From NCBI GenBank assembly GCA_006503475.1, contig RSEH01000362.1, positions 1 to 35,396 on the forward strand: a DNA stretch of 35,396 nt, written 5' to 3'. Shown here piece after piece: positions 1 through 35,396 of this stretch; the stretch's first letter is position 1; each line of letters opens with the position of its first letter. The notes below the pieces were generated by a model. It had not been told where the DNA came from, searched no databases, and worked only from the letters and a program-made list of their open reading frames with translations. The translations under genes and the position numbers were made by a program. The stretch is from Stentor roeselii. Its lineage: Eukaryota; Ciliophora; Heterotrichea; Heterotrichida; Stentoridae.

Positions 1-1
1 T

Positions 2-3000
2 GAGAAGTTGATCGCAGATCTACTCAATAAAAACAATGAAAGCCCAGATCTGTTAGATGCTTTGAAAGAGAAACTTGATGAAAACCTTGAAAATGCTTTG
101 AAAAATGCAGAAGAACTTCTCAAGAACAACCCAGAAGCACTTTCTGAACTTGAAAAAATAAGAAAAGATGCAGGTTTGCTAGATAAACCACTTTCAGAAG
201 ATAAACTAAAAGACTTAGAAGCATTTTTAGACAGTTCAGATCCTGAAACTTTGGCCGCTCAGATTAAGGATAACGATAAAAACTTACCTGATGCTTTGAA
301 AGATGCTCTTAATAACAACAATGGCGATGTTGATAAAGCAATTGAAGAACTCTCAAGAAAACTGAAAAACAAACCTACCTTCAAAAAACTAAGGAAACTC
401 AGAAAACCTTTAGGATTGACTGATAGTCCAGTAGAAAATAGCTCAGTTGTTGGAGATTGTCTGAAAGATCTCAAAGCTCAAGATTTGATCAATGATCTTT
501 TAAATAACAATGATGGACTTGCTGATTTAGTTGATGATCTCAAATTAACACTAGATGAAAACCTTGAAAATGCTTTGAAATCCGCAGAAAACGAACTAAA
601 AGACAACCCAGAAGCCCTTGCCAAGTTATCAGAACTCCAAAAATCCTTCTCACCCATGCAAACCCCATCACCATCCAATCTAAAAGACCTCGAAAACTTC
701 CTATCAAGTTCAGACCTGAATTCCCAAGCCGCTCTAATCGCCTCAAACAACGAAAACTTGCCAGATCTCTTAAAATCTTCACTTTCAGACAACAAAGACG
801 ACTTATCCAAAGCCTTGGACTCGATTTCAAGAAACCTTAAATCCAAGCCTCTCATCAAAAAGCTGAGAAAACTAAGAAAACCTTTGAATCTTCCTGAATC
901 TTCTCCGCTCGGACAACTTGAAGACTGTCTTCGAGACCTTGAAGCCGAGGCACGTCTTTCAGCCCTTCTTCTTGAAAACAACCCGCTTCCTGACTTACTT
1001 GAACAGCTTCAATCAAAACTCGACGAAAACCTGGAAAATTTAATGAAAAATGCAGAAGATCAGCTGAAAAACAACCCAGAATCTGTAGAAACTCTGAAAA
1101 AAATTAAAAAATCAGCAGGTTTCCCTGAATTCAACTCAGAAAATAACGATTTTAAAGACTTAGAAGAATTTTTAGAGAGTATCGAGGAGGAGACTCTTTT
1201 AGAAATCATTAAGTCAAGGTTTGAAACTCTTCCAACCCTTTTGAAAGACTTGCTTCAAAACAACTCTCTTCCCCAGGCCCTTGAAAATCTTTCTGAAAAA
1301 TTCCGACGCAAGCCAGTCTTCAAAAAGCTGAAAAAACTGAAAAAATCTTTGAAAGTCGCTGAACCTGCCAAGCCTCTAGTCGAGTACTGTCTCGAAGACT
1401 TATACTATGAAGAAGAAATCACATCCTTGCTTAAAAAGAACAAAAAACTTTCAGAGCTTTTGAAAAAACTGAAACAAAAACTTGAAGAAAATCTTTATGA
1501 AACTATTGAAGAAGCTGAAGTTGCATTAAAATCGGACACACAAGGTTTACAGGTTTTGAAGAGAATTAAAGAAAAAGCCTTCTTAGAGGCTCAAGCTGTG
1601 GAAAGCTTGAAAGACCTTCTTGACTCGAAGGACCCTGAAGTCCTTGCTGAGGAACTTAAGAAAAATCCTGAAGTTTTAGAAAATATTTTACATTTAGATG
1701 AGAAAGACTTGAAAATGACTCTTGATAAGGCAGCGGTACTTCTTTTAGATAAACCTTCTTTTGATAAACTGAAAAAGTTGAGAAAAGCTCTGGATTTGAA
1801 GGAAGAACCGGATTTACTTGAATGTTTGGCTGAAGAGTCTTTGTGGTATGAAGAAACTGAAGAAACTGTTAGTCGTTTGGTTAAAAAGACTTATCAGTTG
1901 CCGAGTATTTTAGAAGTGCTTGAAGTTTTAATTAGAGAAGAACTTTTGAAAGATATTCTTTTTGCTGAAAAAGTTCTCAGTGATCAGAAAGATGTTGATG
2001 AACTTAATAGAATTAAAGAACTTAGAAAAAGGAATAAAATTGAAAAGGTACAGGATTTGGCTAAAGCACTTAATCAAATTGACCCTCTTGAATTTAAGGA
2101 TGCGAAGGAATTGCCTGAAAGTGTTGTGGTTGCTTTAGAATATATTGAAGAATATTCGGTTGTTTTTGAAGAACTTACATTTGTTTGTGAGAAAAATTCT
2201 AGATCGATGGAAAATATTGTGGTTTTGAAACAGCTATGGAAAAATCCGCATGGGTTAGAAGAACGTTTGAAGTCTTGTGTTGATGATCTAGAAATCGACA
2301 TCAAAGTTAAGAATCTTCTTAATTCAACATCAGAACTACCTCCACTTCTATCAAAACTTAAAGATTTACTTGATAAATCTTTAGAGCAAGTTTTGTTAGA
2401 ATCTCGAAACACATTCAAATCTTCTCCAGACTTATTAAATAAACTTGATGAAATCGAGAAGAATTCAGGACTAGCTCCTTTAGACCCAGCACTAGTAGCA
2501 CAGATTGTTGGATTAATGAAGACTCCTAATGTTTTCGAAGAGAAACCAGCAGAAGGTTTGCTTCCTGAAGCAAATCAAGCCTTAGACACAGTTAGAAATT
2601 TGGCTTCTGGACCTGCACCTTCATTTGATCTACTTGTTTTAATTTCTCTGGTGAAACATTCAATAAGCCAAGACCCGATCACTTCGAAAAACCTTGAATC
2701 TTTAAACCATTTCTTAAAACAAGTATTCAACTCAGACAATTACCTCAAAGTCCAAATAATCAACTGCTTGAAAGACATAGAAGCCGAAAAGCTTGTTCGA
2801 TCATTATTAGGCGACACTCCAGACTTACTCATTCTTCTTCAATCCCTATACGAAAATCTCGATATTCCACTGAAAAAATCTCTGAAAAACGGCGAAAGTC
2901 TTTTAGAATCCGAAGAAGAATCTCGAGCTAAACTTCAAAAGTTGAAAGACTCTTTAAGACCTGAGTCAAGTTCCAATTGTAAAGAATGGGTCTTATACTG

Positions 3001-6000
3001 TATGAAACAAACTGAAATTCTTACTTATGTTATAAATATCATTGACGAAAATTTACCATTAAAGTTGCAAAAATTAAATCAAATGTTATCTGATTGTGTT
3101 GATGAAAATCTGGAAAAAAATAGAGAAATGTTTAAGTTTGAATCAGAAGCTTGGGAAGAGATTGAAGAAATCGTTGAAATTAGAAGAAAGAAGGAAATTG
3201 AAGCGAAAAATATTGATGGAATTGTGGGATTGATTTATTTCGCTATTGTGCAGGTTGAGGTTTTAGTTTTAATCACGCGATTTAGGAAAACTATTGTGAT
3301 GCATACTGAATTGATAAAAGAAATTAGGGTAAGGACAGAGAGTAATTTGCAGGGACTGGCTCAAAAGGCCCAGATACTTTTGGAACATTACCCAGATGCT
3401 CTTGAGGAATTGAAAGTCTTGCAGAAACTTATTGATGAGTCTGATAAGAGTAAGACAACTGACCAGGATAATGTACCTGCACTCCTAAAAGAAACTCTTG
3501 AAACCATCCTAACCGAAGAAAAAGTCCAAACTCTTCTAATCAGCACCTTATCCAATCAACTCACATCCTTAACAGAAAAGCTAAACGAAGAACTATCCAA
3601 AGCCTTAAGCCTCGCAAATTCTGACTTTTTAGAAAACCCAGAAGCTTTAAACAAGCTAAAAGAAATCGAATCAGGCGCTTTTTCATCTCCAACCTTAAAA
3701 CTTGAAGCCCTAAATTCTGTAGCATCTCTAAAAGACTCTATGACTGAACTAGACCTCTTGAAACTTGATCGAAAGTCTGAAGTGCTTCTCAATAAAAACC
3801 TTGAAAAACTCTCGAAATGGTTAAATCCTGAAAATCTTCAAAGTGAATTCGAAGACACAAAACAAGTTGAAGCTTTGAAGAAATTGAATGAAGCGAAGGA
3901 AAAAGCTTTGAAAATTAATGAAATACCTGAAAGTCCGCAGTATAATAGGGTTAAACGAATTGATCTTAGACTTGACTTACTTCTGGAACTGGAAATTTTT
4001 GAAGAGGAATGGATGGAAGTGGTGGAGGAGAAGGTGAAGAAAATGAATTTAAAGGTTAAGGAACTTATTGAGGAAACTGATCAAATTAAGGATTCTTTGA
4101 AAGCTGCTGGAGATGCTTTGGAGATGAAGACTGGAGAAGTCTCCGCCCTACAAGACGCTTTAAAATCCAAAGAAGACGAAATCCAATCCTTATCCGAAGA
4201 CCTGAAAAAGGCAGAAGACGATTTATCATCTCAATCCAACCTCCTAGGCAAGAGCAACGACGAAACCTCCAAACTTCTCGAAAGCCTGCAAAAAGACCTT
4301 CAAGAAAAAGAAAAAGATCTTCAATCCCTAAAAGCCCTTCAAGAAAAATCACAAGAAGACCTTTCAAAAGCCCAATTAAACGCATCTGAATTAGAAAAAG
4401 CTCTAAACAAGGCCAACGAAGAAGTCGGGACTTTAGCAGAACTTGCAGCAACTGCCCAAATGGACCTGGAAGAAAAACAAAAGGCTTTAGACGCACTTCA
4501 AAACTTACTCGACGATAAAGAAGCGACTCTTGAAGAGCAACAAGCTGCTCTCGACAAACTCGCTGAAGAAGTCAAGTCAAACAACGAGGCCCTTGCAGAA
4601 AAAGACTCAGAGTTCCAGTCACTTTTAACAGAACTAAAGGAAAAAGAAGCAGAAGTAGAAAAACTCGCAGATTCAGTGAAAGAAAAAGAAAAACAACTAA
4701 AACAACAGGAAGAACTCGCTTCACTTGAAGGTGATTCAGCTTTAAACTCGTTAAAAGACCTTCTAAAGCAAAAAGAAGATGAAATCGCTTCACAAGGAAA
4801 TGCTTTACAGTCATTAAACGACCTGGTCACTTCCTTGCAAGACGATTTGAAAGCGAAAGAAGAAGATCTTCTTGGAAAAGACTTTGAAATCAAAAACAAA
4901 GAAGATGAACTTGCAGCGAAAGAAGTCGAAATGCAAGACTTGCAAGGACAACTTGAAGACTTACAAGATGAACTTCAGGAAAAGACTCAACAACTCGATG
5001 ATAAAGAAAATGACCTTAAAACGAAAAATGTTGAAATTATTGAAAAAGAAAAAGAAGCTGAAAAAGCCGCTCAACAACTTGCGGAACAAGCAAAAGACTT
5101 GAAAAACAAGGAAAATGAACTTAAAGGACTTAAGTTAAATCTTGATGCTGCTATTGAGGAACTTGATAGGAAAAATGATGACCTTGGAAAAGCTAATGAA
5201 GTTATTGAGGCTCAGAAAAAACAAATTGATAATCAACAGGAATTGTTAAAGGCTTCACCTGATAAGGACTCGGAAATTCTTCAGAAAATATCGAAAGATG
5301 CTGCGGATAAAACTCAGGAAGCTATTCAGAAAGGTCATGAATTGGAAAAAATTAAGAAAGAATTGGAACATGCCAAAAGTGTCAGAGGGAAACTTGAAGA
5401 TGATCTTGCTGCTAATCAAAGGGAGAAGGAAGAGTTGAATGATAAACTTAAACAGAGTCAAATTGCTCATAAAAAGGGACAGGTTAGACATGTTCTTAAG
5501 ATTTTCAAGCAGAAGGAAGGTAAAGTCTTCAAGGTGTGGGTGAAGTATTCTCCAAACCGTGAAAAAGTGATCCAAATGGTAGACTCAGAAGACCTCGACT
5601 TCATCGACGAGATCGAAGAAGTAGAACTAAAAAACGACTACATTCTCGCGGATCAACTAATAAACGAAGAAAACCGAATCCTAATCGAGACAAACCCAAT
5701 AATGATCCAATACAAGCAAATCGAAGGCAAAACCGAGAAGCCAATGAGTTACATAAACATCTTCAAGTTCCTAGAAGACCTAATGGACAAAAAGTTCGAA
5801 ACCGACAAAAAAGACATAAAAGAGTTACGTCAAATGCGTTCAATGACAGAATTCATGATGGAAAGTCTCCAACGTCAATTCGGTATTCAAAGCCTAGCTC
5901 TAAAGTTCTTAGGTCAATTTATCCCAGGTTTCTATCAAATTTACGGAGAAAACCATAAATACGCCATATTCTTCGCACGTCTTCTTCAACTTTTCCACCC

Positions 6001-7305: not shown

Positions 7306-7767
7306 ATGGATCTTGTTAGGTTTTATCAAGGGTATTCAGGACATAAGAACTATTTCTTTGCCCCTGCTTCGCTTAGGAAACCGAAAAAGAAGATGGGTGA
7401 TTGTTACAAGCAAATTAATGTTTTGGGAAATAGTGACTTGCATCGGATTATCACTTCGAATGGACAATGTAGGGAGAGTAGGGAGAGGTATTTACAGAGA
7501 AAGGATGTTATTACACCTGAAAGTCTTTCTTTTCATATTCAGAAGAGAAAACTTGATTTGACACCGTTTCCTAGAATGGAAAATAGATATCAGTCAAGAG
7601 CTGGAGATTCAAGTACTTTTCGGATTAGGGGAAAGACGAAAATTTTGAAGATTTATAGAAATTCAATGGTGGATGAGGATTACATGCCTTTGAATTTGAA
7701 TATCAAAATTAACCTTAACCTGCCAACTTCCTACACTTCAACGCAAAACGCTGAAGTCCAAACATAA
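7306..7767 (+). CDS. Small basic protein of unknown function (153 aa)
   Basis: The ATG lies 38 bases after the stop of the giant gene, on the same strand, and the TAA stop is 18 bases from the convergent stop of the next gene. The protein is basic and hydrophilic with many Arg, Lys, Tyr and Ser, and shows no signal peptide, membrane segment or coiled coil. I recognise no domain. Small basic, tyrosine-containing proteins of this size are common among axonemal microtubule-binding proteins, but nothing here proves that. The frame is probably real because it fills almost the whole gap between two genes and is free of stops over 462 bases. Confidence 0.65.
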   Translation: MDLVRFYQGYSGHKNYFFAPASLRKPKKKMGDCYKQINVLGNSDLHRIITSNGQCRESRERYLQRKDVITPESLSFHIQKRKLDLTPFPRMENRYQSRAGDSSTFRIRGKTKILKIYRNSMVDEDYMPLNLNIKINLNLPTSYTSTQNAEVQT

Positions 7768-7785: not shown

Positions 7786-10700
7786 TCACACATAAAACCC
7801 CCTTCCAGAGTAGCCAACACAAGCATGGCATATAGGAAGTCCCCTTCCTTCTTTAACCGGAGTTTCAAGTCCACACTGTCCACAAAGTGTCATATTTTTC
7901 GAGTAATTCAACGAAAACTCAATCCAAAGTGAATCAAGCATGAAAGCCTTTGCATTAACAACCATTTTAAACTCATTAAAACTGAGTTTTCCATCTCTGT
8001 CCTGATCATAAATCTCAAAAACCTGATTAACAAGTCCTTCCAAGCTCCCCGTCAAGCCAGGGTCATTAGCAGCGACCATATCAAACAAGTCAGACTTATA
8101 CAAAAATCCGTATTCTTTATTGCAAAAAGCATTGAAAACAATCAAAAGTTTCCTATCCACAAACGAACTTCTCAAGGCACTGACCCCTGCGACATAACTT
8201 CTAAACAAAACAAATCCATTGTGAAATTCATCAAGTCCTTCAAAAAGCTGCTGCACGAAGCTTCGCTTCGTGATTCCTTTGCTAGTCAACATGTTATGAA
8301 ACTCAAATCTATTTAGTCTTCCATCAACTCTTCGATTTGTAGTGAATCTTGAGAAGTCAAGATGAATGGCTTCTAGTTCAGGGACTGAAAGACCGTAATT
8401 TGAACTCAGTTCTCTCAGAAGCTGGTCCTTTTGATTTAAAAATTGATGAGACATGTCATCATAGTTGGTCTGATAAGCGGTCATGTTGTGAGGAGCTGGA
8501 AGTTCTGATACTATGAACTTGATTTCAACTTGAGGAATTACTAAAGGTTCACTGATCGGCTTGCCGAGCAGTTGTAAGGATTTCATCTGTTGTTGATAAA
8601 TGAAATGTGTTGAATCAAGCATTGAATAATTTAAAGAGTTCTGGTTATCGATGAGAATTTTATCGTTTTTCGAGTCGTTATACTCGATTTTTTTATAGTC
8701 TTTGTATAACTCGTTGATCTTTCTAGATTTTACCCTGTTTTTCACTGAAAAGTACTCAAAGTCTTCTTTTTGCATCATTTGAAAAACGTAGTTTTTTCCA
8801 TTCGGGTACTTGTTAGAGTCGATGGTCTTCACGATCTGAATAAAACTCACAAATCTTTGAACTGAACTTAAAAGACTCAAGTCGTCGATGTGAAAGTTAA
8901 ACTCGACTCCATTGCTAAGAACATTTTTGAAGTAAACAGAAACCCCTGTTAAAAGTTCGACAATCATGAGACTTTCACCGTTGTTTAAGTTCTGATGAGC
9001 GAGGATGAACCTGTCGAGTAAAGAGATCAAAGCACTTGAAACCTAAGAAGCAGTTACATTGACTCCAGGATACACTAACTGATGCAGGTCTTTACCTTTT
9101 TTACACTCTTCAACGAGAATTCGAACGATTTCTGCAAGGGAATTGGCTTGTTCCATCTGAAAATGAGATAAAAAAGCGTTGGTTTGTTTTGGGTCGCCTG
9201 TGATCCAACCGTTCATGAGAAATTTGATGAGGACTTGAAGACAGTCGTGTAAATATCCGAAATAATAAATTATTGGAGACTCGCAGTATAAGGTTGAGAC
9301 GGAAGATGATGTGTCTCTGAAGAATATTAAGGATTTGAATAGAATTTCAATCAGGCCTGTTCTTACCAGGTCCCTGCTTAAGACTTACTCGATTAGAAGT
9401 CGGGTCTCGCCATTTAACATCAGTTTTATTATTCGGATTGATTCTCTTCGAGTCTCTTTGTTAGCTTCGATTAGAATTTGAAGCTGGTGGCTTAGGTTTG
9501 GAAGGTTCATGATACCCCAGATGAAACCTTTTTCTATTAGTAACTTTAGGATACTGCAACCGTCGAGAACGAGACTTGTTGTTTGATTTATCAAGATTTC
9601 ATTGATTTTCAGAAATAAACCAAATTCAATCAAGACCTGACATTGCTCTTTGTTTCTGCATATCAAATTCCGAATCGTTTGAAGAACTGCTTTTTTTACG
9701 ATCAGGTCTTCATGAGAAATCAACTGGATCAGCCGCTCGAGTATCCACCTGTAAAAGTCCTTTGCGATTATGTAAGGAAGCACGTAAGACAGGCTTATTA
9801 AACTATTCGCCAGAAGGTTTGACTCATCTTGACTGCTGAACTGTCCTAGAACTGTCTCTGCTATTTCATGCAACTCATTCGGGTGGATGTTTGGAGGAAG
9901 TTGACGGTCTTGGTCCATTGTCGCTCCTGTGAATATCGACAAAGCCCAAGCAGCTCTAACAAGACTAGAAACATCAATCAATTTATTCAACCCTTTCTTC
10001 AAAATTCCCAACAAAACCTGAATAGCACCCTGAGCATACAACAAGTCCCTAATATTGCTATCATACCTAGTAATAAACCCAATAGCAAGCAACGCCTGTC
10101 CACTAACTTCAATACATTCACTATTACAAAGCATCAAAATATTCCTAATACTTCCAGAGCTCACAAGTAATCCTTTAAAAATCTCAACACATTTTTTACT
10201 TTCATTAGGAAAATTCGGTAATCTAGGTCCAGGCACAATAAGAGTAACAATATTCAAAGCTTGCCATTGAACCTGTTTAAACTTCTCATAATTCAAAAAT
10301 TTCACCACTAATGCAAGAACATTACTCGTGATCAATTTACTAAAAAGTGCCAAAAGAAACTCACTAACACCCTGTCTATCATAAGCAGATGAAAAACAAC
10401 AGAGAACTCTAAGCATTTCTTTCAATTCTTCTAGTCCAGAAAAGACTATTGCCATGTCCTGTTGTTGTATTTGGTTCAAAATTCTAAGAAATTCAGGTTC
10501 TTGAATTTTCACTGCGACTTTGCTGAAATAGTTCTTTTGTTCCTCGATTGAGTAAACTTTGCTTTCGCCTAAATAGTCCCAAGTCTCGGTTCGTGCTTCG
10601 AGACTGTCGACGTGGTACTCGTTTAGTTGCGCATTTGCGTAACCGTTACCTAGAATACCTGCTATGGCCTTGTGAATGTTTTTCTTCTCGTGTGAACTTA

Positions 10701-11004: not shown

Positions 11005-11450
11005 TTTGAATATTTTCACTTTGAAATCATGGGGATTTTATCATTAAGATGATTTGGGGGATGATTTAATTGATATATGAAGATCAGAGATACCGCTATC
11101 ATGATAAACCTTAAGGGGATTTATTAATAGTTTTTTAAAAGGAAAAGAATGAAAAATTATATCAAAAGCTTCAAATGAAAAATCCTGCATAAAATAATTG
11201 AAAAATTTTGCATTAGAACCTTTTCTTTATAAACAAAAAATATTTTACACTTTCAAAACAATTCTCATAAGTGATAAAGTTCATCAATCAAATATTTCAA
11301 TAAATCCAACATTTCAACTAAAAAATCTACTCCAAAACATATCTTCATACCAAACTAACACCTTAAAATTCTTCTTCTATTTTCAATCGATTTATTTCCC
11401 ACTTAATTAAAATTTCACTTTTCCCGAACCTTGAATGAATTATTTAAATA
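11005..11450. other. Intergenic region between divergent genes
   Basis: 446 AT-rich bases between the start of the EF-hand/armadillo gene and the start of the cysteine-rich gene. Both promoters must lie here. The left part is G-rich on the + strand (GATTTGGGGGATGATTTAAT near 11051) and the right part is C-rich and G-poor. I see no RNA gene or repeat; a 70-codon frame at 11198-11410 is AT-driven and not convincing. Confidence 0.6.
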
Positions 11451-12473: not shown

Positions 12474-12841
12474 TTATTACTAGGATAGTTTAAATATAGA
12501 AATGTATTGGTAGTCAACATTAAAATATTTGATTAAATAAATAAATACTTGAATTTTTTGCGATAAATCGTAAGGTCTATCATCGATATTTAGGTTAAAT
12601 AGTTGAGCCAGAATAACTAATTAAAGTATAGAGGAGCTTTGGTCAGGGAAGATTTGCAACTAAGAGCAGTGTGGACTATAAGAAAGTGATTATTATTTAT
12701 GAATATTATTTGTTAACTTCAAGCTTACCTTTGCTTATATCTTAGGAATTCAAAATCTCAAGTTAAATTAAATCCAACTTTTCTTCATTATTTCCCTTTC
12801 AAAATCCCTTAAAATCCCAACTTAATTAATAAACATCCAGT
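12474..12841. other. Intergenic region between convergent genes
   Basis: 368 AT-rich bases between the stop of the cysteine-rich gene and the stop of the minus-strand basic protein. The left two thirds are G-rich on the + strand and the right third (from ~12710) is C-rich. No frame, tRNA-like fold or repeat was seen. Confidence 0.55.
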
Positions 12842-16021: not shown

Positions 16022-16340
16022 TTAAATAATAAGTCAGAAAAGTTAACAATATTAGATAAATGATTTTAAATTTGGTTGATTGACTTGGAAGATTTAATGA
16101 TTCGATTATTCTGAAATTTTTTTGGTTTATTTGAACTATAAGATTTAATAATTTATTGAAAACTACTAACATGATCTAATGCTACAAGATTTTCCCAAAC
16201 TCCTCAAAAACCACCAAAATCTTAAAAATTCCCTCAAATCCTCTCTACCTACCCTAAAAAAAACCCAATTTCCAAACCCTCTAAAATAAAATCATCAAAA
16301 ATCTCAAACCTAAATCCTTAATCAAAAAACTCTAAAATTA
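16022..16340. other. Divergent promoter region with C-rich, G-poor strand
   Basis: 319 bases between two divergent starts. The right half (from ~16190) is almost devoid of G on the + strand and rich in CCC/AAA words up to the ATG at 16341. No RNA gene or repeat recognised. Confidence 0.55.
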
Positions 16341-22082: not shown

Positions 22083-22089
22083 ATTTATT

Positions 22090-22776
22090 CTAACTTTTCA
22101 AAGCTTCAGCAATCATCTTAAGAAATTCTCTGCTTTTTGACTTCTTCGCAATATCTCGACAGTTGCGATTAAGCATGTCTCTTCGAAGCACATCTGCTGA
22201 AAAGCTTATCAAAATTTTTCCGATTTCCGCGAAGTTCCTTTTCGCTGCCCAGTGAAGACCTGTCATTCCAAGACTGTCGATTGAGTTAACAAGTTCTGGA
22301 TTCGTTATTAACAACATGTTAAGGTCGTTTTCGTTGTTGTTTTTTACGTATTTGAAAAAATTTAACTCGTTTTCATCGCGTTTTAAATGATTTTCGATTT
22401 GGTCAAGTTTTTTTTTACGGTTTTGAAGAATTTGGTTGAAGTCTTTTTTGGGTTCGAATTGAGTTGATATGGATTCTGAACTTTTACTGTTTTGGATGCA
22501 GGGCTTTAAGGAAATTTCTCGGATTAGACGGAATTTTAAAGGAGGGGGCTTGAAGAGGAAGATTTCTTTTCGGTTTTGGAAGGAAAAGTAATTTGATGGA
22601 GTTTGGTTTCGGTAGAGAGGGGATTCTGGTATGTGAGTTGGGATTGATCTTTGAGGGTTTTTTCTTGTTTTTAATTTTGAGAGAGAGATTTGTGACTGGT
22701 TCGTCAGCATCTCCTCAACCAAGAACATCCTGGCAGGTGAATGACGATTAATTGACTTGAGCTGAAAAAACGACAT
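22090..22776 (-). CDS. Ankyrin-repeat protein (228 aa)
   Basis: The ATG at 22776 is chosen; an in-frame TTG six codons earlier is not a likely start. The first ~110 residues are basic and Ser/Pro/Phe-containing with no fold recognised. A Lys-rich helix follows (~115-140). Residues ~140-228 hold about two ankyrin repeats, the clearest being SLGMTGLHWAAKRNFAEIGK followed by ILISFSADVLRRD, then a shortened repeat ending at the C-terminus. Ankyrin repeats bind proteins; the partner is unknown. Its upstream neighbour on the same strand encodes a SAM-domain protein. Those two domains often occur in one polypeptide in other eukaryotes, so they may act together (inference). Stop TAG. Confidence 0.85.
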   Translation of the reverse strand: MSFFQLKSINRHSPARMFLVEEMLTNQSQISLSKLKTRKNPQRSIPTHIPESPLYRNQTPSNYFSFQNRKEIFLFKPPPLKFRLIREISLKPCIQNSKSSESISTQFEPKKDFNQILQNRKKKLDQIENHLKRDENELNFFKYVKNNNENDLNMLLITNPELVNSIDSLGMTGLHWAAKRNFAEIGKILISFSADVLRRDMLNRNCRDIAKKSKSREFLKMIAEALKS

Positions 22777-24017: not shown

Positions 24018-25352
24018 ATGGGAATCTGCTGCAGTTCACGTTTAGACTTCTTAGAAGACCCGACCTATTCCAACAAAATCGACTTATTCATTCAAGAGCG
24101 AGACCGTTCAGGTCGAGTCATCACTCGAATGCCAGTCACTTTTCTAGTCTCATCACCTTCTGAGCAGAACAGTTTGATTTGTGATCTTCTTAAAACAAAA
24201 TTCCGTCTTTCAGGCTGCGTCATTCCAGGACTCGACCCCCGCGGCGAGTGTGACAAAGACTGTCAAGATAGTTTCGCGTTAATGTCAAAGGACAACAACA
24301 TCTTTTGTATCTTATTTGATGGCCACGGAAAAGACGGTCGAAGAGTTTCTTTATTTTGCAGGGATTTTATGTTGAATTATTTTCATAAGAATTTTGAGAA
24401 CTTCGAAGTAGACCCTTCCACTGCTATTGAAGAAATGGTTGATGGATGTGATTGTGCCCTTCATAGCAGTGGAGTTGAATGTAACTTGTCTGGGACTACT
24501 GCTGTTGTTTTAGTTATTAATTCACTTGGCATTCATGCTGGAAGTGTTGGAGATTCAAGAGCGATTATTGCGAGTTTGCCGAAATCGAATAGTTTTATTT
24601 CTCCTGAGATGAAAAAACAGACGGCTTTTAATCGACCTGTTCAACCCAAGCGCGTTTTAAATGCGGTTCAGTTGACTGTGGATCAGAAACCGAATCATGA
24701 AGAAGAACTTAAAAGGATTAGGGGGTCTGGAGGAGTTGTTGAGAAATTGGCGGATGACTTTGGAAGACCTGTCGGACCGTATAGGGTTTGGAAGAAAAAT
24801 GGAAATTTACCTGGATTGGCTATGTCTAGATCGATAGGGGATAGAATTGCTCATGAAATTGGAGTGATTTCTACACCTATTTGTCATTCGTTTAATTTGT
24901 ATCCCGCTTTTGATCAGTTTATTGTTTTGGCTTCTGATGGGGTTTGGGATGTGATGGATAACTTCGAAGTTGCAAATTTTGTCGAAAAATTCCGAAGTTC
25001 CTGTCAAAATTCAGGAATTGACTTCCCCGCTCGTACTTCCAACTCGAATATTGCAAGACTCTTATGTGAAGAAGCTCGCTTTAGGTGGTTTGGAGTAGTT
25101 GAAGAAGAAGATGTGATGATTGATGATATTTCTTGTGTTGTTATTGAAATTGGCTTTGGCGATCTTAGCGTTAGTAACGATGTCAGAAATGTGGTTGATA
25201 GAAAAGTTGATAAGTTCAAAAGTATTGCTATTGATACCTCAGCTAAGAGAAATTCTGCTGTTCGGAAAGACCCGACTAGGGGAAGTATGGCGACTGCTGA
25301 AAATGAAATCGAGCAGGCGTTGATTGATCTGCAAAACGAAGATACAAAATAA
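24018..25352 (+). CDS. PP2C-family Ser/Thr protein phosphatase, probably N-myristoylated (444 aa)
   Basis: A metal-dependent phosphatase with the standard PP2C landmarks: QDSFALM (83-89), DGHG (101-104), GTTAVVLVI (159-167), HAGSVGDSRAII (173-184), GLAMSRSIGD (266-275), ASDGVWDVM (305-313) and the C-terminal metal-binding DDISCVVIE (369-377). Asp84, Asp101, Asp307 and Asp370 are the likely metal ligands. The N-terminus MGICCSS fits N-myristoylation at Gly2 with palmitoylation at Cys4/Cys5, so membrane attachment is likely; many ciliate PP2Cs share this. The ~65 residues after the domain are disordered and contain Ser/Arg/Lys. Substrate unknown. Stop TAA, 49 bases before the next ATG on the same strand. 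Confidence 0.95.
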   Translation: MGICCSSRLDFLEDPTYSNKIDLFIQERDRSGRVITRMPVTFLVSSPSEQNSLICDLLKTKFRLSGCVIPGLDPRGECDKDCQDSFALMSKDNNIFCILFDGHGKDGRRVSLFCRDFMLNYFHKNFENFEVDPSTAIEEMVDGCDCALHSSGVECNLSGTTAVVLVINSLGIHAGSVGDSRAIIASLPKSNSFISPEMKKQTAFNRPVQPKRVLNAVQLTVDQKPNHEEELKRIRGSGGVVEKLADDFGRPVGPYRVWKKNGNLPGLAMSRSIGDRIAHEIGVISTPICHSFNLYPAFDQFIVLASDGVWDVMDNFEVANFVEKFRSSCQNSGIDFPARTSNSNIARLLCEEARFRWFGVVEEEDVMIDDISCVVIEIGFGDLSVSNDVRNVVDRKVDKFKSIAIDTSAKRNSAVRKDPTRGSMATAENEIEQALIDLQNEDTK

Positions 25353-25401
25353 GAAGGCTAACCATTCCAAATCACCCCAACTTACTTCTAGTTTAATATA
25401 A

Positions 25402-26769: not shown

Positions 26770-26936
26770 TATGTAATAAATAGAGGATTTAGTGTTTTTG
26801 TGAATTGATAGATTGCTGATAAAATAATTATCAACACAATAAAAACCCTAAAAATTCTCCTATATTCAACATTCATAATTTAAAATAAACATCTGATTAA
26901 TTAAATTAACTCATTCCTATCTATCTTATTAAATAC

Positions 26937-28191: not shown

Positions 28192-30882
28192 ATGGAAACC
28201 ATTGACCCGAACTTTGTCGAATCTTGGATCCAGGGAACTGATGATGATGTTGAAAGGGAAGGTTTATGTGTGAAGGCTGGAAGTCAGTGGTATGTTGTTA
28301 GTATGAAGTGGCTTAACAAATGGAGAGCTGCTAATCATATGAAGCTTAGTGATGAGAATGAGAATGAGAGAGGCTTTGAAAATTGTGAGGATCAGGGGAT
28401 TGTTATTGGGGATTGTGAAAATATTGAGCAAGGGAGGATGAATAGGGGGAAGGAGGATGTGTTTGAAGATATGGACATTGACGCTAGTCCAGCTCCAAAA
28501 ACGACGACTGAAAATTCAATCTCAGACACTCAAATGCAAGACACGAATACTACTGAAGTAGGTCCAGTCGACAGCGAAGACATAATTGAAGTCTTCGAAA
28601 ACCACGTTCCAAGAGTCCTAATCAAGCCAGACCTAATAATCGGCAAAGAAATCGAAATAATCCCTCCAAAAGCCTGGAATTACTTCAAAGAAAAATACAA
28701 TTTCAAGCACGAAATAATCAGATACTCAATAAAAATCGGAAAATCAACAAAAGTCGAAATTTACCCAAAAAAAATACAAATCGTTTTATTCGTCAATAAA
28801 AAACTATCACAAGAACTAACAACTTTCCACATTTCTCTCAAATCAAAAAAGCAAGAACTCGAATCAAAAGTCCTCGACTACGCAGTAGAAAATTTCAACT
28901 TAGAACCTGAACGTTTAAGACTTTTCCTCTGGAAATTCACCGAAACTCACGATTTAATCAGAATAAATCAAATCGTATCATCAGGAAAGCCGATATCAGC
29001 AAGACTTTTAAAAGACAACGACGAGATATCTGATCTTGAAATAGCTGATGAAGACATAGTTTTAGCTGAAATAACAGAAAATCTTTCAACTTCCTTTAGA
29101 GAGTACCAAGCACCTTCACTTTTAAGTCAAATTTCTTCAAATTCACGAAAAGGACTGACAGGTCTTCAGAATTTAGGCAACACATGTTTTATGAACTCAG
29201 GGTTGCAGTGCTTGTCAAATACGCATCGGTTGACTGAGTACATGTTAAGTGGGCAGTTTAACAGTGATATTAACAAAAACAACAGAATAAGTACTAAAGG
29301 AAAAATAGTCACTGCTTATGCTGATCTTGTTCGTGAAATGTGGAAAGGGTCCAGTTCTAGTGTCTCGCCTTGGGCAGTGAAAAAAGCCTTAGGAAGCGTC
29401 GCTCAACAATTTATGGGATTTTCTCAGCAGGACTCACAAGAAATGCTTTGTTATTTGATTGACGGCATTCATGAAGACATTAATCAAGCACCTAAGCCGA
29501 AACCGACAGAAATTGATGAGAAAGGGAAAAATGAAGAAGAACTTGCGAATATCTGGTGGGAAAAACATTTAGAACGTAATCAAAGTATCGTCGTTGATTT
29601 GATGCATGGACAGTATAAAAGTCAAGTCAGGTGCAAAGTTTGTAATAATGTCTCTTTAGCCTTCGACCCTTTCTTAATGTTGACTCTTCCTGTCCCTTCA
29701 AAGGAAATCATTTCTAAAGAAATCACTGTCGTTGATGGGTCTAAAGCTTTTCAGTTTCGGACTGAATTGTCAGGACAGTCAAAAATCAGTGAAGCGATAA
29801 AAAAACTTCCTAGAGAAATGTCTTCTGAATTGTTTATTGTCGGAGAGTGTGATGGTCATTCGAAAGAAGTGAGAAGAATTATTGCGAAACATGAAATAAT
29901 TGATAAGAACAGAGACTATCTACTGTTTAAATACTCGCCTATTGATGAGAACTCTACTCTAGTCCTTTGCAACTTTTCTACAAAGATGTACAGTGATAAC
30001 TATGGATGTGGAACTCCTCTTGGAATCACTCGTTTATTCATCGTTGAAAAAGGAAGTTTAAAGGACTTTCACTATTCAATTTATTCACAAATTTTAAAAC
30101 TTTCAGAGGAAAAAGACTTGGAAATCTCTGAAGTTCAAGAAAGGTTTAAACAGCATTTTTCAGGTTTTTTTTCAGATAAAAAGGACTTGCTTTACACTTT
30201 GAATATTTATAACCCTGGAAGGACTCCTTGTGTCATTTGCCGAAAAGAGACTTGCTATGGATGTCCTGTTCCTTTTAATGATGAAGAGTTAAATCGATGT
30301 CTTAATGTTTGCAGAGATCCAGCTTTATTCGTGAACATCATATTCAAAGGAGACAAGCACATCATCAGTACCAAGTACAGCTCATTAAAATACTCAATCA
30401 CTCATCATCGAGAAGAAGATTCAAAATCTTTAAAGTATTCAAAAGAACTCAACATCTACGACTGTCTTCAAATCTTTCAAGAAGAAGAAGAACTTAACGA
30501 GTCAGAGTCAATTTACTGTCGAAATTGCAAGGAACATCAAACAGTCTTTAAAAAAATGAGCATCTTTCGTCTTCCAGAATATCTCATAATCCATTTAAAA
30601 CGCTTTAAAGGTCAAAGGTACTCAATGCAGAAAATCAACAGTCAAGTCAACTTTCCAATTGAAGGTTTAGAAATGGAGCAAGTTGACGGGAATCGAGCAG
30701 TTTACGACCTTTACGCAGTTTCAAATCATTACGGCTCGATGGGTGGAGGGCACTACACAGCTTACTGCAAGAACGTGAATAACCTTTGGTATGACTTTAA
30801 CGACTCTTCAGTCTCACAGGTAAGAGACCCTTCGACTGTGATATCATCAGCAGCTTATGTCTTATTTTATAAACGCAGGTAG
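28192..30882 (+). CDS. Ubiquitin-specific protease with N-terminal DUSP domain, USP4/15-like (896 aa)
   Basis: A cysteine deubiquitinase. Residues ~1-45 resemble a DUSP domain (WIQGTDDDVEREGLCVKAGS; WYVVSMKWLNKWRA), continuing after an acidic insert at ~138-180. A ubiquitin-like segment spans ~185-255. The catalytic core begins at GLTGLQNLGNTCFMNSGLQC with Cys332. The zinc ribbon is formed by CKVC (near 482) and a downstream CRNC pair. The His box is YGSMGGGHYTAYCKN with His854, and the third member is probably Asp871 in WYDFNDSSV. A large insert within the core carries a separate CVICRKETCYGC motif. Domain order matches the USP4/11/15 group. All catalytic residues are present, so it is probably active. 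Stop TAG, 25 bases before the next ATG. Confidence 0.95.
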   Translation: METIDPNFVESWIQGTDDDVEREGLCVKAGSQWYVVSMKWLNKWRAANHMKLSDENENERGFENCEDQGIVIGDCENIEQGRMNRGKEDVFEDMDIDASPAPKTTTENSISDTQMQDTNTTEVGPVDSEDIIEVFENHVPRVLIKPDLIIGKEIEIIPPKAWNYFKEKYNFKHEIIRYSIKIGKSTKVEIYPKKIQIVLFVNKKLSQELTTFHISLKSKKQELESKVLDYAVENFNLEPERLRLFLWKFTETHDLIRINQIVSSGKPISARLLKDNDEISDLEIADEDIVLAEITENLSTSFREYQAPSLLSQISSNSRKGLTGLQNLGNTCFMNSGLQCLSNTHRLTEYMLSGQFNSDINKNNRISTKGKIVTAYADLVREMWKGSSSSVSPWAVKKALGSVAQQFMGFSQQDSQEMLCYLIDGIHEDINQAPKPKPTEIDEKGKNEEELANIWWEKHLERNQSIVVDLMHGQYKSQVRCKVCNNVSLAFDPFLMLTLPVPSKEIISKEITVVDGSKAFQFRTELSGQSKISEAIKKLPREMSSELFIVGECDGHSKEVRRIIAKHEIIDKNRDYLLFKYSPIDENSTLVLCNFSTKMYSDNYGCGTPLGITRLFIVEKGSLKDFHYSIYSQILKLSEEKDLEISEVQERFKQHFSGFFSDKKDLLYTLNIYNPGRTPCVICRKETCYGCPVPFNDEELNRCLNVCRDPALFVNIIFKGDKHIISTKYSSLKYSITHHREEDSKSLKYSKELNIYDCLQIFQEEEELNESESIYCRNCKEHQTVFKKMSIFRLPEYLIIHLKRFKGQRYSMQKINSQVNFPIEGLEMEQVDGNRAVYDLYAVSNHYGSMGGGHYTAYCKNVNNLWYDFNDSSVSQVRDPSTVISSAAYVLFYKRR

Positions 30883-30907: not shown

Positions 30908-31486
30908 ATGATTCCTCAAAGAAACTGCATTTTGACCAAAAGCATTGTTGGACAAGTCAGACCTTCTTATCATAAACTCCCTTCAGAAACTTTCGCTTAT
31001 GGAAAGTTTTCAGGGAAAGATGAAGAAGGCGCTGCTGAAGTCATTCGTCGGTGGAAGTATCATGAAAATAGTCTCAGTCCGAAAAAAGAAGGAAGTTTTT
31101 TATTGTCGAATTCACAAAGTGTCTGTAAAGGACTTTATAAAGGCTCGGAATTTGCGAAGTATAGGAAAAGTATCGTCGGTGAAATAAAAAGTCGCATTAA
31201 TAAAGTGAAGTCTTTGGGGAAAATTAATGATATCGCTCATGGGACTCCCATGAAACCTAGTACGCCTATTCAAGCTGTTGTGAATAACTTTTATGGAAAC
31301 TTGGCACAGAGTAAATATCAGGAAAAGATTAAGGAAATTTCGATGAGAAAAGAAAAAATGAATAACCCGAATTTTGTTTTGAAGACGAAATTTGTTACTC
31401 CTAGTGTGACGAAGCCGCTTTTTAAAATGAAAAAATTTTGTAAGGTGCAGAGTAGGGCGAAATGCTGGGAACAGGATGGGAGTTAG
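30908..31486 (+). CDS. CFAP77-like axonemal doublet protein (192 aa)
   Basis: Residues ~23-50 (KLPSETFAYGKFSGKDEEGA, then AEVIRRWKYH) and ~112-130 (GTPMKPSTPIQAVVNNFYG) match the order and spacing of conserved segments I recall in CFAP77/FAP77: a LP-x3-F-x-YG segment followed by a GG/GA-x-E-x-I-x-RW segment, then a RPSTP segment. CFAP77 sits at the outer junction of the B-tubule in axonemal doublets. The protein is basic, without membrane segments or coiled coils. The match is by eye, so the family call is probable and not certain. It lies 25 bases after the protease gene, and its TAG is 12 bases from the convergent RIO2 stop. Confidence 0.68.
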   Translation: MIPQRNCILTKSIVGQVRPSYHKLPSETFAYGKFSGKDEEGAAEVIRRWKYHENSLSPKKEGSFLLSNSQSVCKGLYKGSEFAKYRKSIVGEIKSRINKVKSLGKINDIAHGTPMKPSTPIQAVVNNFYGNLAQSKYQEKIKEISMRKEKMNNPNFVLKTKFVTPSVTKPLFKMKKFCKVQSRAKCWEQDGS

Positions 31487-31498
31487 ATTATAAATCCA

Positions 31499-32812
31499 TT
31501 AATTTTCTACCTTTTCTTCTTCATTTTTTATGTTTTTTTCATCGTTTACTATCTTTTCTTCTTCCTTTCCTATCTTTTCATCATTTCCTTTCTTTTCTTC
31601 ATAATTTCCTATCTTATCTCCATCATTTCCTATCTTTTCTCCATCATATCCTATCTTTTCTCCATCATTTCCTATCTTTTCTCCATCATTTCCTATCTTT
31701 TCTTCTTTCTTTTCTATCTTTTCTTCATCCTCTTCTATCTTTTCTTCATCCTCTTCTATCTTTTCTTCTTCACTTTCATCTTCTTCACTTTCTGGGTCTT
31801 CTTCTTGGTCGTCACTAGAAACATTTCCAGATTTTCCTTGATTTCTTTGGTCTTCAATCAGATTGTCCATATTTTCAATTTCTTTTTTCTTCAGTTGTTC
31901 TCTAAGATACCCACTTGCCTTGATTTCTAAGTCAAGGTTTTTCAGGACTTGAATATTTTTCAATTGTGGAATTTCAGCGAAAATCGAGAACTTCTTCTCG
32001 AAATAATCGTTGAGACATTTAAGGTCATGCTCGAAAAGATCTACTGAGTTTAAGTGGTTTGTTGATACCATCTGGGGAAAGTCAATCACGTGGACTTCCT
32101 CATCGTCTGTGACGAGTAGGTTGAATTGGTTGAAGTCACAATGAACTAGGCCGAGTTCTGCAAGTTTGACTGCCAGATCAAAACATTGGTTCAAAACTCG
32201 ATCAGGATGAACCATTTTGCAAACATTAACAAGCGGATACCCAGGTATCAGCGACATTAGGATCGCATGTCGATTATGACTAATCGGAACAGGTGTCCTA
32301 ATACCTTCATCATGAAGACTTTGCATAAAAGTAAACTCTTTAATAGCAGAAAGTCTTGAAAGATAAAGCCAATTATGTTTACTTCTCCCTTTCAAATAAT
32401 CTCTTTTATTTTTAACAGCCCGAAAAGAAACCCTTCCAAGTCTCGCAAGTTTCAACACAATTTTCTCATCATTTTCTCCATTGCAAAGATAAATATCACT
32501 TTCCTTTCCAGTCCCCAACATATTCCCAATCGCTTTAATAATCCCTCGTTTGATGAAAGTCTGAATAGCAAGAACATCATACCCAGGATAAGTAAGAAAA
32601 TACCCATCAACATGCTTGTTTAAATGAGAGACCAATTTTTTTTTCAGTAAACTTTGAACGACCTTGAAAACGCCTCCTCTTCTAAGCTTTGCAATTGATT
32701 CTATCAATGCAAGAGGGACGATTTCATGATTTTTCATTCCCATTTCAATAGCGGTCAGTACTCGGAACTCATCTTTTTCCAGGTATCGGATAATTGATGA
32801 GTCGAGTTTCAT
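31499..32812 (-). CDS. RIOK2: RIO2-family atypical protein kinase (437 aa)
   Basis: An essential ATPase/kinase for late maturation of the 40S ribosomal subunit. Residues ~1-90 are the winged-helix domain specific to RIO2. The RIO kinase core follows: GTGKESDIY (100-108) as the P-loop, Lys121 in IVLKLAR, the catalytic HCDFNQFN (224-231) with Asp226 and Asn231, and the metal-binding IDFPQ (243-247) with Asp244. After ~330 the protein becomes extremely acidic, ending in a heptad-like tail of EKIGNDG units encoded by 21-base repeats. The tail is unusual in length and regularity. The start codon is 5 bases from the divergent neighbour's likely start. Stop TAA. Confidence 0.96.
   Translation of the reverse strand: MKLDSSIIRYLEKDEFRVLTAIEMGMKNHEIVPLALIESIAKLRRGGVFKVVQSLLKKKLVSHLNKHVDGYFLTYPGYDVLAIQTFIKRGIIKAIGNMLGTGKESDIYLCNGENDEKIVLKLARLGRVSFRAVKNKRDYLKGRSKHNWLYLSRLSAIKEFTFMQSLHDEGIRTPVPISHNRHAILMSLIPGYPLVNVCKMVHPDRVLNQCFDLAVKLAELGLVHCDFNQFNLLVTDDEEVHVIDFPQMVSTNHLNSVDLFEHDLKCLNDYFEKKFSIFAEIPQLKNIQVLKNLDLEIKASGYLREQLKKKEIENMDNLIEDQRNQGKSGNVSSDDQEEDPESEEDESEEEKIEEDEEKIEEDEEKIEKKEEKIGNDGEKIGNDGEKIGYDGEKIGNDGDKIGNYEEKKGNDEKIGKEEEKIVNDEKNIKNEEEKVEN
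31550..31777 (-). repeat. 21-base minisatellite encoding the acidic RIO2 tail
   Basis: On the + strand the unit is close to TATCTTTTCTCCATCATTTCC. About ten units are seen; three are near-identical in the centre and one ~39-base unit looks like a merged pair. It encodes EKIGNDG-type heptapeptides (residues ~346-420). Unit length is a multiple of three, so copy-number change keeps the frame. Confidence 0.85.
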
Positions 32813-33198: not shown

Positions 33199-33563
33199 GA
33201 TTTATTGATTAGGGAGTTTTAGGAGTTTTTTTTATTTGGATTGGGTTTTATATTTGGAGGATTGAGTTTTTTGGAGAATTTTACTTTTATGATAATTTTT
33301 TATTTATTTTAAGAGATTCTTTTGTTTTTATTTGAGTCACTTTAATGAAATCACTTAAAACACTAATTTTCATTGAAAATATATGTCAATGGTAAAATTT
33401 TAGAACAAATCATAGTTCGATTAAAATTTTCAGAATAATTCTCAGTTAAAATTAAATTTTCAGAATAAATATCAGTTTAAATAAAATTTCGATTATAAAT
33501 CATTATAAATTAAAAGGGTATTTTATTAGTACAGTAATTTTCTCTTTATTACAGATTATAATC
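33199..33563. other. Intergenic region upstream of the GTPase-like gene
   Basis: 365 bases. 33199-33300 is nearly free of C on the + strand (2 C and 31 G in 33181-33300). From ~33340 the bias reverses, and the right half carries the short degenerate repeats listed separately. No RNA gene seen. Confidence 0.6.
33394..33512 (+). repeat. Four degenerate ~30-base tandem repeats
   Basis: Units begin AAAATTTT / AAATTTT / AAAATTTC at 33394, 33423, 33453 and 33483, and share AAAATTTTCAGAATAAATAT-like sequence followed by CAGTT. The period is 29-30 bases. They end ~50 bases upstream of the GTPase ATG and may be promoter-linked. Confidence 0.65.
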
Positions 33564-34172: not shown

Positions 34173-35020
34173 ATTGGTTTATGAAAGGAGATTTAAATTT
34201 TCATTTAGATTAAGGACAGGAGATTTTTTGTATCGGGGTAATCTTTATTTGTACTCCAACTTCATCAACACAAATCAATTTTCCTTAAAAGCCGCTGATT
34301 TCCTTCTAAAGCAGTATCTAGATCAACTCCTTCCTCAAACTTTGAATGCCTGTGGATTCGGATTATTAAAAACATCACATAAATCATTTGTTCTCACGTT
34401 TAACCCTGGAGACCTGAAAAGCTAAAAGAAACTGTCCAGTGCTTTCAAGTACCACCAAGAGACAAGCCTAAGACCATTACGATAATTAAAAAAAACCATA
34501 ATTGCTATGCTTCCTCGAATCGATTCAACTTCCAACAGAACCCACTTATCTCTACCATTAAAAAGGCTGAATCACTGAGCCTCATCTCCTATTTCCTCTC
34601 TAAACCTCCAGAAGTTGAAACACAGTCTTATTCACTCTATTCATACTATCATGCCTTATAATCATCTCCCTTATTAAATTCCTCATCATACCTCTACCAT
34701 TCTCATCGCCATTATTTAGGCACTTCTTAGAATATGAGAAAAAATATGACTTCTGCTTGCCGACTCCAGCTGTTTTAAGGAATTCACAGATGACCCGGGC
34801 ATTTCTGAATGAAAGGAAAGGTTTAAGTGAGACCTTTCCTTATGAGCTGAGAGAGGCGGTTTTATGTTGATATGGAAAATTGGTATTTATGGCATTGTGG
34901 AAATGATGAATTTTTTAGGTGGATTAAGAAGGTGTCATGTCTCTAGGCTTCTGCGTGGCTCAAGAGAATGAAGGAGATTTTATTGATGGCAGATGGGATA
35001 GCCTCACCCTTGAGGATTAA
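34173..35020 (+). pseudogene. Possible decayed subtelomeric gene (coding-like pieces in shifting frames)
   Basis: Protein-like stretches follow one another on the + strand in changing frames, none with a good ATG start: ~34189-34425 (ends FNPGDLKS), 34404-34660 (TVQCFQVPPRDKPKTITI near its start), 34619-34870 (a hydrophobic segment, then LPTPAVLRNSQMTRAFLNER), ~34857-34945 (DMENWYLWHCGNDEFFRWIK) and 34937-35020 (MSLGFCVAQENEGDFIDGRW). The shifts are both +1 and -1, so 15- or 16-nt introns alone cannot repair them. I do not recognise the family. Assembly errors near the chromosome end, or chance, are alternatives. Confidence 0.35.
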
Positions 35021-35320
35021 TTAGAGGGTTTAATGGCGGGGGTCAGATGTGTTTTGTAGAGATCGGAGATGGGTCTGATGATTGAGGCACAAAGATGAAC
35101 AGGGCGGAATTGTTCATTATGTCTAAAAATAATGAGGGTAATCTATTAGAATAATTATAAGTAGAAAGAATGTCTGATAATAACTGCGTTTGGCGATTAG
35201 ATGACCTGAGATACTGCAGGTTAATGGATTTTGTTTTTTAATTAAGGAAAAGAAAATGGTTTATTAGGGAAAAGTCGCACATGCCTTTTATTGATGGTAA
35301 TCCTTGGGATAACAGATTTG
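35021..35320. other. Subtelomeric non-coding sequence
   Basis: 300 G-rich, C-poor bases (on the + strand) between the last coding-like piece and the telomere. No frame, repeat or RNA gene was seen. Confidence 0.6.
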
Positions 35321-35396
35321 GGTGTTAGGGTGTTAGGGTGTTAGGGTGTTAGGGTGTTAGGGTGTTAGGGTGTTAGGGTGTTAGGGTGTTAGGGTG
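35321..35396 (+). repeat. Telomere array (GGTGTTAG)n
   Basis: Nine and a half perfect 8-base units run to the right edge, G-rich strand 5'->3' outward, as expected for a chromosome end. The unit equals TGTTAGGG, i.e. CCCTAACA on the other strand, the repeat reported for Stentor and Blepharisma macronuclear chromosomes. Confidence 0.97.

Follow-up and report, generated by a model that had tools for sequence, protein, structure and literature searches.

Sharp drops in GC skew along Stentor roeselii chromosomes and their possible origin in recurrent germline breaks

The window analysed here is the whole of contig C301 (35,396 bp) of Stentor roeselii, from an assembly of 44.39 Mb in 522 contigs. 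Along its top strand the GC skew, (G-C)/(G+C), followed a saw-tooth course of sharp drops and gradual rises, and the first 200 kb of a second chromosome, C40 (249,799 bp, telomeres at both ends), which served as the comparison sample, behaved like the window. The saw-tooth and its sharp drops are real. The skew was limited to approximately 400 bp to either side of a drop, whatever the distance to the next drop, and in non-coding DNA the main event was a loss of cytosine (to thymine) on one strand. Recurrent germline breaks, probably meiotic, with cytosine deamination on their 3' tails would explain the drops; we hold this explanation tentatively, as plausible but a little short of probable.

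One half of the third-codon and non-coding sites served to locate drops and rises (|z|>=2.8), and the held-out half to measure them. This half-site search gave 109 drops (26 in the window, 83 in C40) and 97 rises when the two samples were pooled. The main drop and rise profiles and the long-tooth profiles were obtained from held-out sites. The values for two-fold degenerate codons, the gene-strand comparison of shape, the motif counts and the exposed-strand C/(C+T) ratios were calculated from all sites, and their effect sizes are somewhat inflated because the sites that located the drops were included. The median spacing of detected drops was 1274 bp in the window and 1709 bp in C40, corresponding to one drop per ~1.4 kb and ~2.4 kb, respectively; detected drops were denser in the 35-kb window than in C40.

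A preliminary description of the window had listed 14 drops. Its hand counts of G and C were exact in all eight cases, and 11 of the listed drops were recovered on all bases (z<=-4.5 within 120 bp on one of four scales). The other three, at 21830 (z -4.1), 24960 (-3.2) and 30310 (-2.5), were weaker; the half-site search placed them at 21819, 24959 and 30306, with modest to weak all-base log-likelihood gains of 7.5, 1.3 and 3.5. The drop at 34250 reached a z of -5.5 on all bases, yet was missed by the half-site search. Since 26.8% of 400 random positions also passed the all-base criterion, a single listed drop proves little and the weight of proof lies with the whole set.

For the 500-bp GC skew, the standard deviation (0.199 for the window, 0.184 for C40) was 2.5 to 2.7 times the 0.075 expected by chance. 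At the 100-bp scale there were 8 drops and no rises with |z|>4.5 in the window, and 12 drops and 5 rises in C40. As a control, synonymous codons were shuffled within genes 30 times, with non-coding DNA left unchanged. The 8 drops in the window exceeded the shuffles (mean 5.6, maximum 7), while its 0 rises compared with a shuffle mean of 2.3 (maximum 4). In C40 at 300 bp and |z|>=4 there were 60 drops (shuffle mean 31.3, maximum 35) and 51 rises (mean 21.9, maximum 27); at 100 bp there were 24 drops (mean 17.6, maximum 23) and 9 rises (mean 13.5). The excess over the shuffles was confined to drops at 100 bp and involved both drops and rises at 300-500 bp. Drops were significantly sharper than rises, with a negative mean z cubed in 37 of 46 5-kb blocks at w=60 (sign-flip p 5e-5) and in 35/46, 37/46 and 37/45 blocks at w=100, 150 and 200, where none of 20,000 sign flips was as extreme. 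A 5-kb piece of a third contig, examined at 300 bp, agreed in sense, its largest drop reaching -6.0 and its largest rise +4.7. As a method control, 50 kb of E. coli K-12 gave no drops and no rises beyond 4.5 on three scales, and one drop beyond 4.

Around the 109 drops the held-out GC skew changed from +0.44 at 120-200 bp to the left to -0.52 at 120-200 bp to the right, and it was already +0.28 and -0.27, respectively, within 60 bp. The AT skew changed in the opposite sense, from -0.13 to +0.13. The 97 rises were gradual, passing from -0.28 (60-120 bp left) through zero to +0.15 (60-120 bp right). The continuous climb that had been described between drops was not found in the 21 teeth of at least 2.6 kb, in which two limbs of ~400 bp flanked a low-skew middle. 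To the right of the left drop the held-out skew was -0.56 (100-250 bp), -0.41 (250-400 bp) and -0.04 (400-600 bp), and it stayed between 0 and +0.07 as far as 1300 bp. In the same first three intervals ahead of the right drop it was +0.33, +0.38 and +0.02. Within 400 bp of the drops the GC content of the long teeth was 0.30-0.36, and further out 0.31-0.42.

Exponential tails and fixed tracts were compared in simulations restricted to third-codon and non-coding sites, with parameters scanned rather than fitted. The observed numbers of drops/rises in C40 were 39/18, 75/46, 83/76 and 93/93 at 100, 200, 300 and 500 bp. Simulated tracts of 450 nt on each side of points spaced at ~2 kb gave 42/7, 74/33, 84/72 and 86/104, with a similar autocorrelation, and tracts of 300 nt at that spacing gave 45/12, 74/36, 76/70 and 73/86; simulation without exposure gave at most 6. 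Tracts of 300-450 nt every ~2 kb would come close to the observed counts, a result that bears on their sufficiency only.

A saw-tooth shape might also be produced by replication origins or fixed fork meeting points that impose a skew across entire replicons, in the manner of human N-domains. Mammalian N-domains show a saw-tooth in GC and TA skew, with abrupt rises and a ramp across whole domains of hundreds of kb. The Stentor pattern shares the saw-tooth but has the opposite sense and a far smaller scale, with abrupt drops and little mid-tooth skew in place of a ramp down across the domain. Origins of the usual polarity gave abrupt rises when simulated. The low-skew middles of the long teeth also argue against origins, as does the need for replicons of 1-2 kb. 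Replication start/end sites were among the causes that the preliminary description had left open; replicon-length ramps were not seen in long teeth, and origins or fixed meeting points of forks are a highly improbable cause.

The bases involved were identified by comparing the exposed strand, defined as the strand with its 3' end directed at the drop, with the other strand. In non-coding DNA the C/(C+T) ratio was 0.164 on the exposed strand near drops, 0.357 on the other strand and 0.309 more than 700 bp away, equivalent to a loss of -0.82 log-odds and an opposite-class gain of +0.22. At third positions the ratios were 0.222, 0.513 and 0.361. Inside plus-strand genes, the top-strand C/(C+T) of two-fold codons at 40-120 bp was 0.24 to the left and 0.65 to the right of the drop, and G/(G+A) was 0.48 and 0.16; inside minus-strand genes the corresponding changes were 0.30 to 0.52 and 0.60 to 0.22. 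Codon positions 1 and 2, which were not used to find drops, also shifted (+0.144 to -0.135 and +0.058 to -0.126). Amino acid usage changed as well, the ratios of exposed-side to protected-side coding strands being 1.40 for Val, 1.37 for Gly and 0.65 for His. Such amino acid shifts might suggest selection on codon usage or protein composition. That explanation is disfavoured because non-coding DNA showed the skew too, about as strongly as third positions, with codon positions 1 and 2 less affected, and selection can hardly be the cause.

The 5' neighbour had little effect on the loss of cytosine in non-coding DNA (-0.70 to -0.86 log-odds over the four neighbours), and a more variable one at third positions (-0.23 to -0.86). 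The sharp 5' context preference of the AID/APOBEC deaminases was not seen in Stentor non-coding DNA. Context counts had pointed to a strong CpG effect, which was reassessed against the plateau. Third positions had a clear CpG excess over the plateau (-1.14 compared to -0.42 to -0.85), but in non-coding DNA it was slight, at -0.95 compared to -0.69 to -0.86. No claim of methylation is made, because the latter excess was slight and the observed/expected CpG ratio was equal in limbs and plateau (0.71 and 0.72).

The saw-tooth had been said to ignore gene boundaries, yet a drop was present in 23 of 103 short gaps between open reading frames (ORFs); 300 circular shifts gave a mean of 8.1, and none reached 23. 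Gaps were counted between neighbouring ORFs 0-600 bp apart, and overlapping pairs or pairs more than 600 bp apart were excluded. ORFs beginning at the first ATG were used and full gene models with introns were not built, so that some of these gaps are introns or 5' coding sequence. Drops were present in 10/49 tandem, 8/30 convergent and 5/24 divergent gaps, and rises in 7/103 gaps. Of the 109 drops, 56 (51%) lay more than 150 bp inside an ORF; for random points the share was 64%, and for rises 72%. The companion statement, that gene direction is ignored, mostly stood: all three gap arrangements were enriched, and drops had the same shape inside plus-strand genes (31), inside minus-strand genes (25) and at gene ends or in gaps (53). 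One qualification is that the pooled third-position skew hardly drops at divergent gaps.

The latter result bears on transcription, in which the non-template strand would be deaminated, most of all near gene 3' ends, leaving the coding strand G-rich towards the stop codon. Coding strands were on average C-rich at the start and G-rich at the end, and the strongest pooled contrasts in third-position skew within 100 bp were those of convergent gaps, from +0.20 to -0.26, and of plus-tandem gaps, from +0.27 to -0.12; divergent gaps had almost none. In the accessible text on Halteria, transcription is offered for 3' subtelomeres and the similarity of the strands is noted as contrary (PMC7858049). 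In Stentor, a partial gene-end gradient exists, but the sign of the skew did not follow gene direction: over half of the drops lay well inside ORFs, alike in plus- and minus-strand genes, and drops were present in divergent gaps as well. Furthermore, C-rich 5' ends would require a loss of G from the coding strand, which is the wrong sign. Transcription is a very improbable source of the pattern.

The excess of drops in gaps of all arrangements would also be expected of barriers at which replication forks stall from both sides. The lagging-strand template would be single-stranded just before the barrier, so that the exposed strand would be the top one to the left of the barrier and the bottom one to its right, and the barrier might be a tightly bound protein, a gene end or germline-only DNA. 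The same polarity, the short range and the sharpness of the drops would follow from such a model. It needs a two-sided barrier every ~1.4-2.4 kb, however, and the lack of a sharp motif and the presence of drops within long ORFs also count against it. Fork barriers are an unlikely explanation.

Alternatively, drops may mark germline-limited DNA (internally eliminated sequences, IESs), which is excised and so missing from the macronuclear sequence. Such sites could be broken in the germline by leaky excision or by transposase cuts, or an IES could conceal part of a wave of skew and make its fall look abrupt. In Blepharisma, also a heterotrich, the available text reports about forty thousand IESs for a 41-Mb somatic genome, ~70% of them intragenic compared to 77% of the assembly in genes (PMC9942806, PMC9942856). 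The density of the drops and their mild depletion from ORFs (51% internal compared to 64% of random points) resemble those figures. No TA-centred motif stood out at the drops, which were located with an error of tens of bp. An IES origin is unlikely, though it and fork barriers are the two rivals to be taken seriously.

The top 6-mer within 60 bp of drops was CATAAA (40 compared to 15.2 expected), and telomere-like 6-mers were enriched within 50 bp (30 compared to 10.0). The latter words were nearly as dense at 120-200 bp (2.51 per kb) as at 0-60 bp (2.75 per kb), with 1.55 per kb at 200-400 bp; this count omitted drops lying 400 bp or less from the end of C40 and, in the window, those beyond 35200. 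Because the density was nearly the same at 120-200 bp, the enrichment is attributed to base composition, and the data lend no further support to a telomere-like seed.

Somatic breakage of the macronuclear genome, telomere addition, or the later joining of old gene-sized chromosomes would account for the likeness between the polarity of the drops and that of telomeres. At the chromosome ends of the window, C40, C5, C9, C11 and C13, G exceeded C in the last 150 bp towards the telomere in 6 of 6 cases, the margin being 25 to 24 in one of them. Changes in the somatic genome do not survive sex, however, and the density of telomere-like words at the drop was no higher than at a distance of 60-200 bp. 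In the available text on Blepharisma, macronuclear DNA is reported to have numerous alternative sites of telomere addition, which would favour somatic breakage (PMC9942806). In Nyctotherus the subtelomeric skew is described as a purine skew over ~70-130 bp (PMC2633312), and not as G/T against C/A over 400 bp. Breakage of this kind is very unlikely to underlie the drops.

Strand-specific damage, another cause left open in the preliminary description, is supported by the data when placed around break-like points, given the one-strand C to T loss, the ~400-nt range and the 3'-tail polarity. A resected break is proposed because 5'-to-3' resection would expose, for a few hundred nucleotides, the top strand to the left of a drop and the bottom strand to its right, and cytosine was lost from the exposed strand. 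Each drop would be the site of a recurrent germline double-strand break, whose ends would be trimmed 5' to 3' to leave a 3' single-stranded tail of ~300-450 nt per side, formed by the top strand left of the break and the bottom strand right of it. Tail cytosines would deaminate to uracil and become fixed as T, with some A to G changes possible as well, so that the top strand would turn G/T-rich to the left and C/A-rich to the right. The gradual rises would arise because the tails end between breaks and the skew decays towards zero. In accordance with this scheme, cytosine was lost on both sides from the strand whose 3' end faces the drop, and the tract length was limited and independent of the distance to the next drop.

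A pattern imprinted in the sequence requires events that take place in the germline repeatedly. A meiotic origin is proposed because meiosis is the regular source of such breaks and because a SPO11-type gene is present, so that the breaks would be Spo11 meiotic breaks in the germline nucleus. PF04406 matched once in the genome, in an open frame of 385 amino acids with an E of 3.9e-18; this family also gave matches in archaeal control genomes. Breaks would favour gaps in every gene arrangement and also fall within genes. Meiotic breaks in yeast favour open chromatin and intergenic DNA; the drops were in excess in gaps (23 of 103, with 8.1 expected), but 56 of 109 lay over 150 bp within ORFs.

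Several observations weigh against recurrent germline breaks. The pooled third-position skew within 100 bp changed only from +0.09 to +0.04 at divergent gaps and from +0.07 to -0.02 at minus-tandem gaps. No sharp motif was found at the drops, where the enriched words were mostly AT-rich, with a location error of tens of bp. The long teeth were not perfectly flat, having skews of -0.06, -0.17 and -0.11 at 600-1300 bp before the right drop. Exponential-tail simulations yielded too few rises, and the tract model with 2-kb spacing gave 7-12 rises at 100 bp compared to the 18 seen. A uracil-DNA glycosylase family gene is present in the genome, and uracil is therefore presumably repaired. At third positions the opposite-class gain (+0.62 log-odds), which on the exposed strand is a gain of G over A, was as large as the loss (-0.68); this result counts against pure cytosine deamination, which predicts loss only. 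The gain could be due to undetected breaks in the plateau, or to A>G changes in the tails, which are among the mutation types given for human hotspots (PMC7615360). In the only recent tandem triplicate detected (C40:102204-106418), the 119 unpolarised differences between copy A and the shared state of copies B and C, a small sample, had no visible C/T versus G/A asymmetry along the unit and lend the model no support. Finally, tracts of ~400 nt are shorter than the 1-2 kb per side given for human meiotic resection.

A close parallel to the proposed germline breaks is in human meiosis, where strand-asymmetric mutation was reported in the 2 kb flanking 28,286 mapped hotspots and ascribed in part to single-stranded DNA (Hinch et al. 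2023, PMC7615360). As in Stentor, the changes at C affect one strand to one side of the break, with the complement on the other. The human asymmetry is described as absent from the central +/-100 bp, whereas here it was somewhat reduced within 60 bp, which location error may explain. In addition, mutations were measured around the human hotspots, whereas the Stentor signal is a standing composition visible at single loci, ~400 nt per side, with no motif found. In yeast with a deaminase, an induced I-SceI break can nucleate deaminase mutation showers with strand-coordinated C changes (Taylor et al. 2013, PMC3628087). Break-associated kataegis, as set out in the available text, shares with Stentor the strand-coordinated C changes beside a break, probably on single-stranded DNA from resection, but consists of one-off AID/APOBEC clusters, mostly of 6-15 kb, rather than an evolutionary pattern (PMC3628087). 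The Halteria authors mention cytosine deamination in connection with subtelomeric skew (PMC7858049). The nanochromosomes of Halteria and Nyctotherus resemble the present case in a strand bias at the ends of a DNA unit; in the available descriptions the bias is subtelomeric, and in Nyctotherus a purine skew, whereas here it lies in the interior of long chromosomes, genes included. Among published work on ciliate or heterotrich GC skew, recombination hotspots and meiotic breaks, the pattern was not found in titles or the beginnings of abstracts, which is weak evidence of absence as most subscription journals lay outside the coverage.

If breaks are the cause, sites of recombination initiation and the length of resection could be read from sequence alone in a non-model protist, and changes in the break landscape could be compared among species. 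Mutagenesis on break tails would be strong enough to shape codon and amino acid composition, with a possible bias in codon-usage, phylogenetic and gene-finding work on such genomes. It is possible, if on balance doubtful, that the somatic sequence sampled here, and by extension the whole 44-Mb genome, is a fine map of germline break sites and resection length (~400 nt), with tail deamination as a dominant mutational force, shifting even amino acids, and with sites that may coincide with germline-limited DNA. Should the drops represent germline-limited DNA or fork barriers instead, those features would still be mappable from somatic sequence.

The window resembles a heterotrich ciliate macronuclear chromosome, on account of its telomere, dense ORFs, stop codons, candidate 15-nt introns and eukaryote-type domains. 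Stentor uses the standard genetic code. ORFs were dense in the window and in C40, and all three standard stop codons were in use (TAG 9, TAA 8 and TGA 5 in 22 window ORFs; TAA 60, TAG 34 and TGA 16 in 110 C40 ORFs). A Pfam scan of 10 hand-chosen window ORFs, one of which had no family, identified a eukaryote-type tubulin-tyrosine ligase, a ubiquitin hydrolase and a RIO2 kinase. Candidate 15-nt introns (GTAAG...TAG/CAG) linked adjacent frames in several places in C40 and the window, in a loose search that gave equally many candidates at other lengths. The window ends in (GGGTGTTA)n; the telomere repeat of Blepharisma is reported as CCCTAACA (PMC9942806), of which the former is a permutation on the opposite strand. 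A scan for the telomere pattern returned 6 stretches in viral and 31 in prokaryote collections. The positions of the features are given in Table 1.

Table 1. Skew drops and the terminal telomere in the 35,396-bp window
Positions	Strand	Feature	Remarks
1..35396		Whole contig: saw-tooth GC skew, opposite AT skew	26 half-site drops; AT skew pooled with C40
3350..3490		Drop in large ORF 2-7267 (+)	Refined to 3368; best z -6.0 at 3450
4130..4150		Drop in ORF 2-7267	Refined to 4139; per 120 bp, 38 G/8 C before and 19 G/34 C after
5510..5590		Drop in ORF 2-7267
7670..7715		Drop at 3' end of ORF 7306-7767 (+)	Absent from earlier list
9895..9960		Drop in minus-strand EF-hand ORF 9385-11019
11150..11220		Drop in divergent gap 11019 (-)/11451 (+)	Absent from earlier list
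12695..12750		Drop in convergent gap 12473 (+)/12842 (-)
13540..13615		Drop between minus-strand ORFs 12842-13369 and 14165-16021	Absent from earlier list
16155..16185		Drop in divergent gap 16021 (-)/16341 (+)	Absent from earlier list
17820..17840		Drop in convergent gap 17684 (+)/17924 (-)
22690..22710		Drop near 5' end of minus-strand ORF 22090-22794
25325..25365		Drop at tandem gap 25352/25402	All bases; half-site search 25560; listed 24960 weaker
26815..26835		Drop in convergent gap 26769 (+)/26937 (-)	Absent from earlier list
28470..28540		Drop in ubiquitin carboxyl-terminal hydrolase ORF 28192-30882 (+)
31485..31545		Drop at 12-bp convergent gap 31486/31499	Amplitude inflated by repeat 31502-31777
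33310..33355		Drop in non-coding DNA before ORF 33564-34172 (+)
34235..34260		Drop after ORF 33564-34172 (+)	All bases; not in half-site set
35320..35396	+	Telomere (GGGTGTTA)n	Window end

Two repeats lie beside drops in the table. The 21-bp array at 31502-31777, in 13 copies, lies in the C-terminal coding part of a minus-strand RIO2-type kinase, and the adjacent drop looks larger because of it. A 30-bp AT-rich tandem repeat occupies non-coding DNA at 33393-33515, immediately to the right of the drop at 33310..33355. The large ORF 2-7267, which is open at the window start, had DNA matches of 66-79% identity on C213, C242, C437, C20, C391 and C66; these relatives were considered for mutation counts and set aside as too diverged. 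The tandem triplicate at C40:102204-106418 (L078) consists of a ~1.4-kb unit containing one gene. Two of its copies (B and C) differ at 11 aligned sites and copy A at 119, and each unit forms one tooth, from a C-rich start to a G-rich end.

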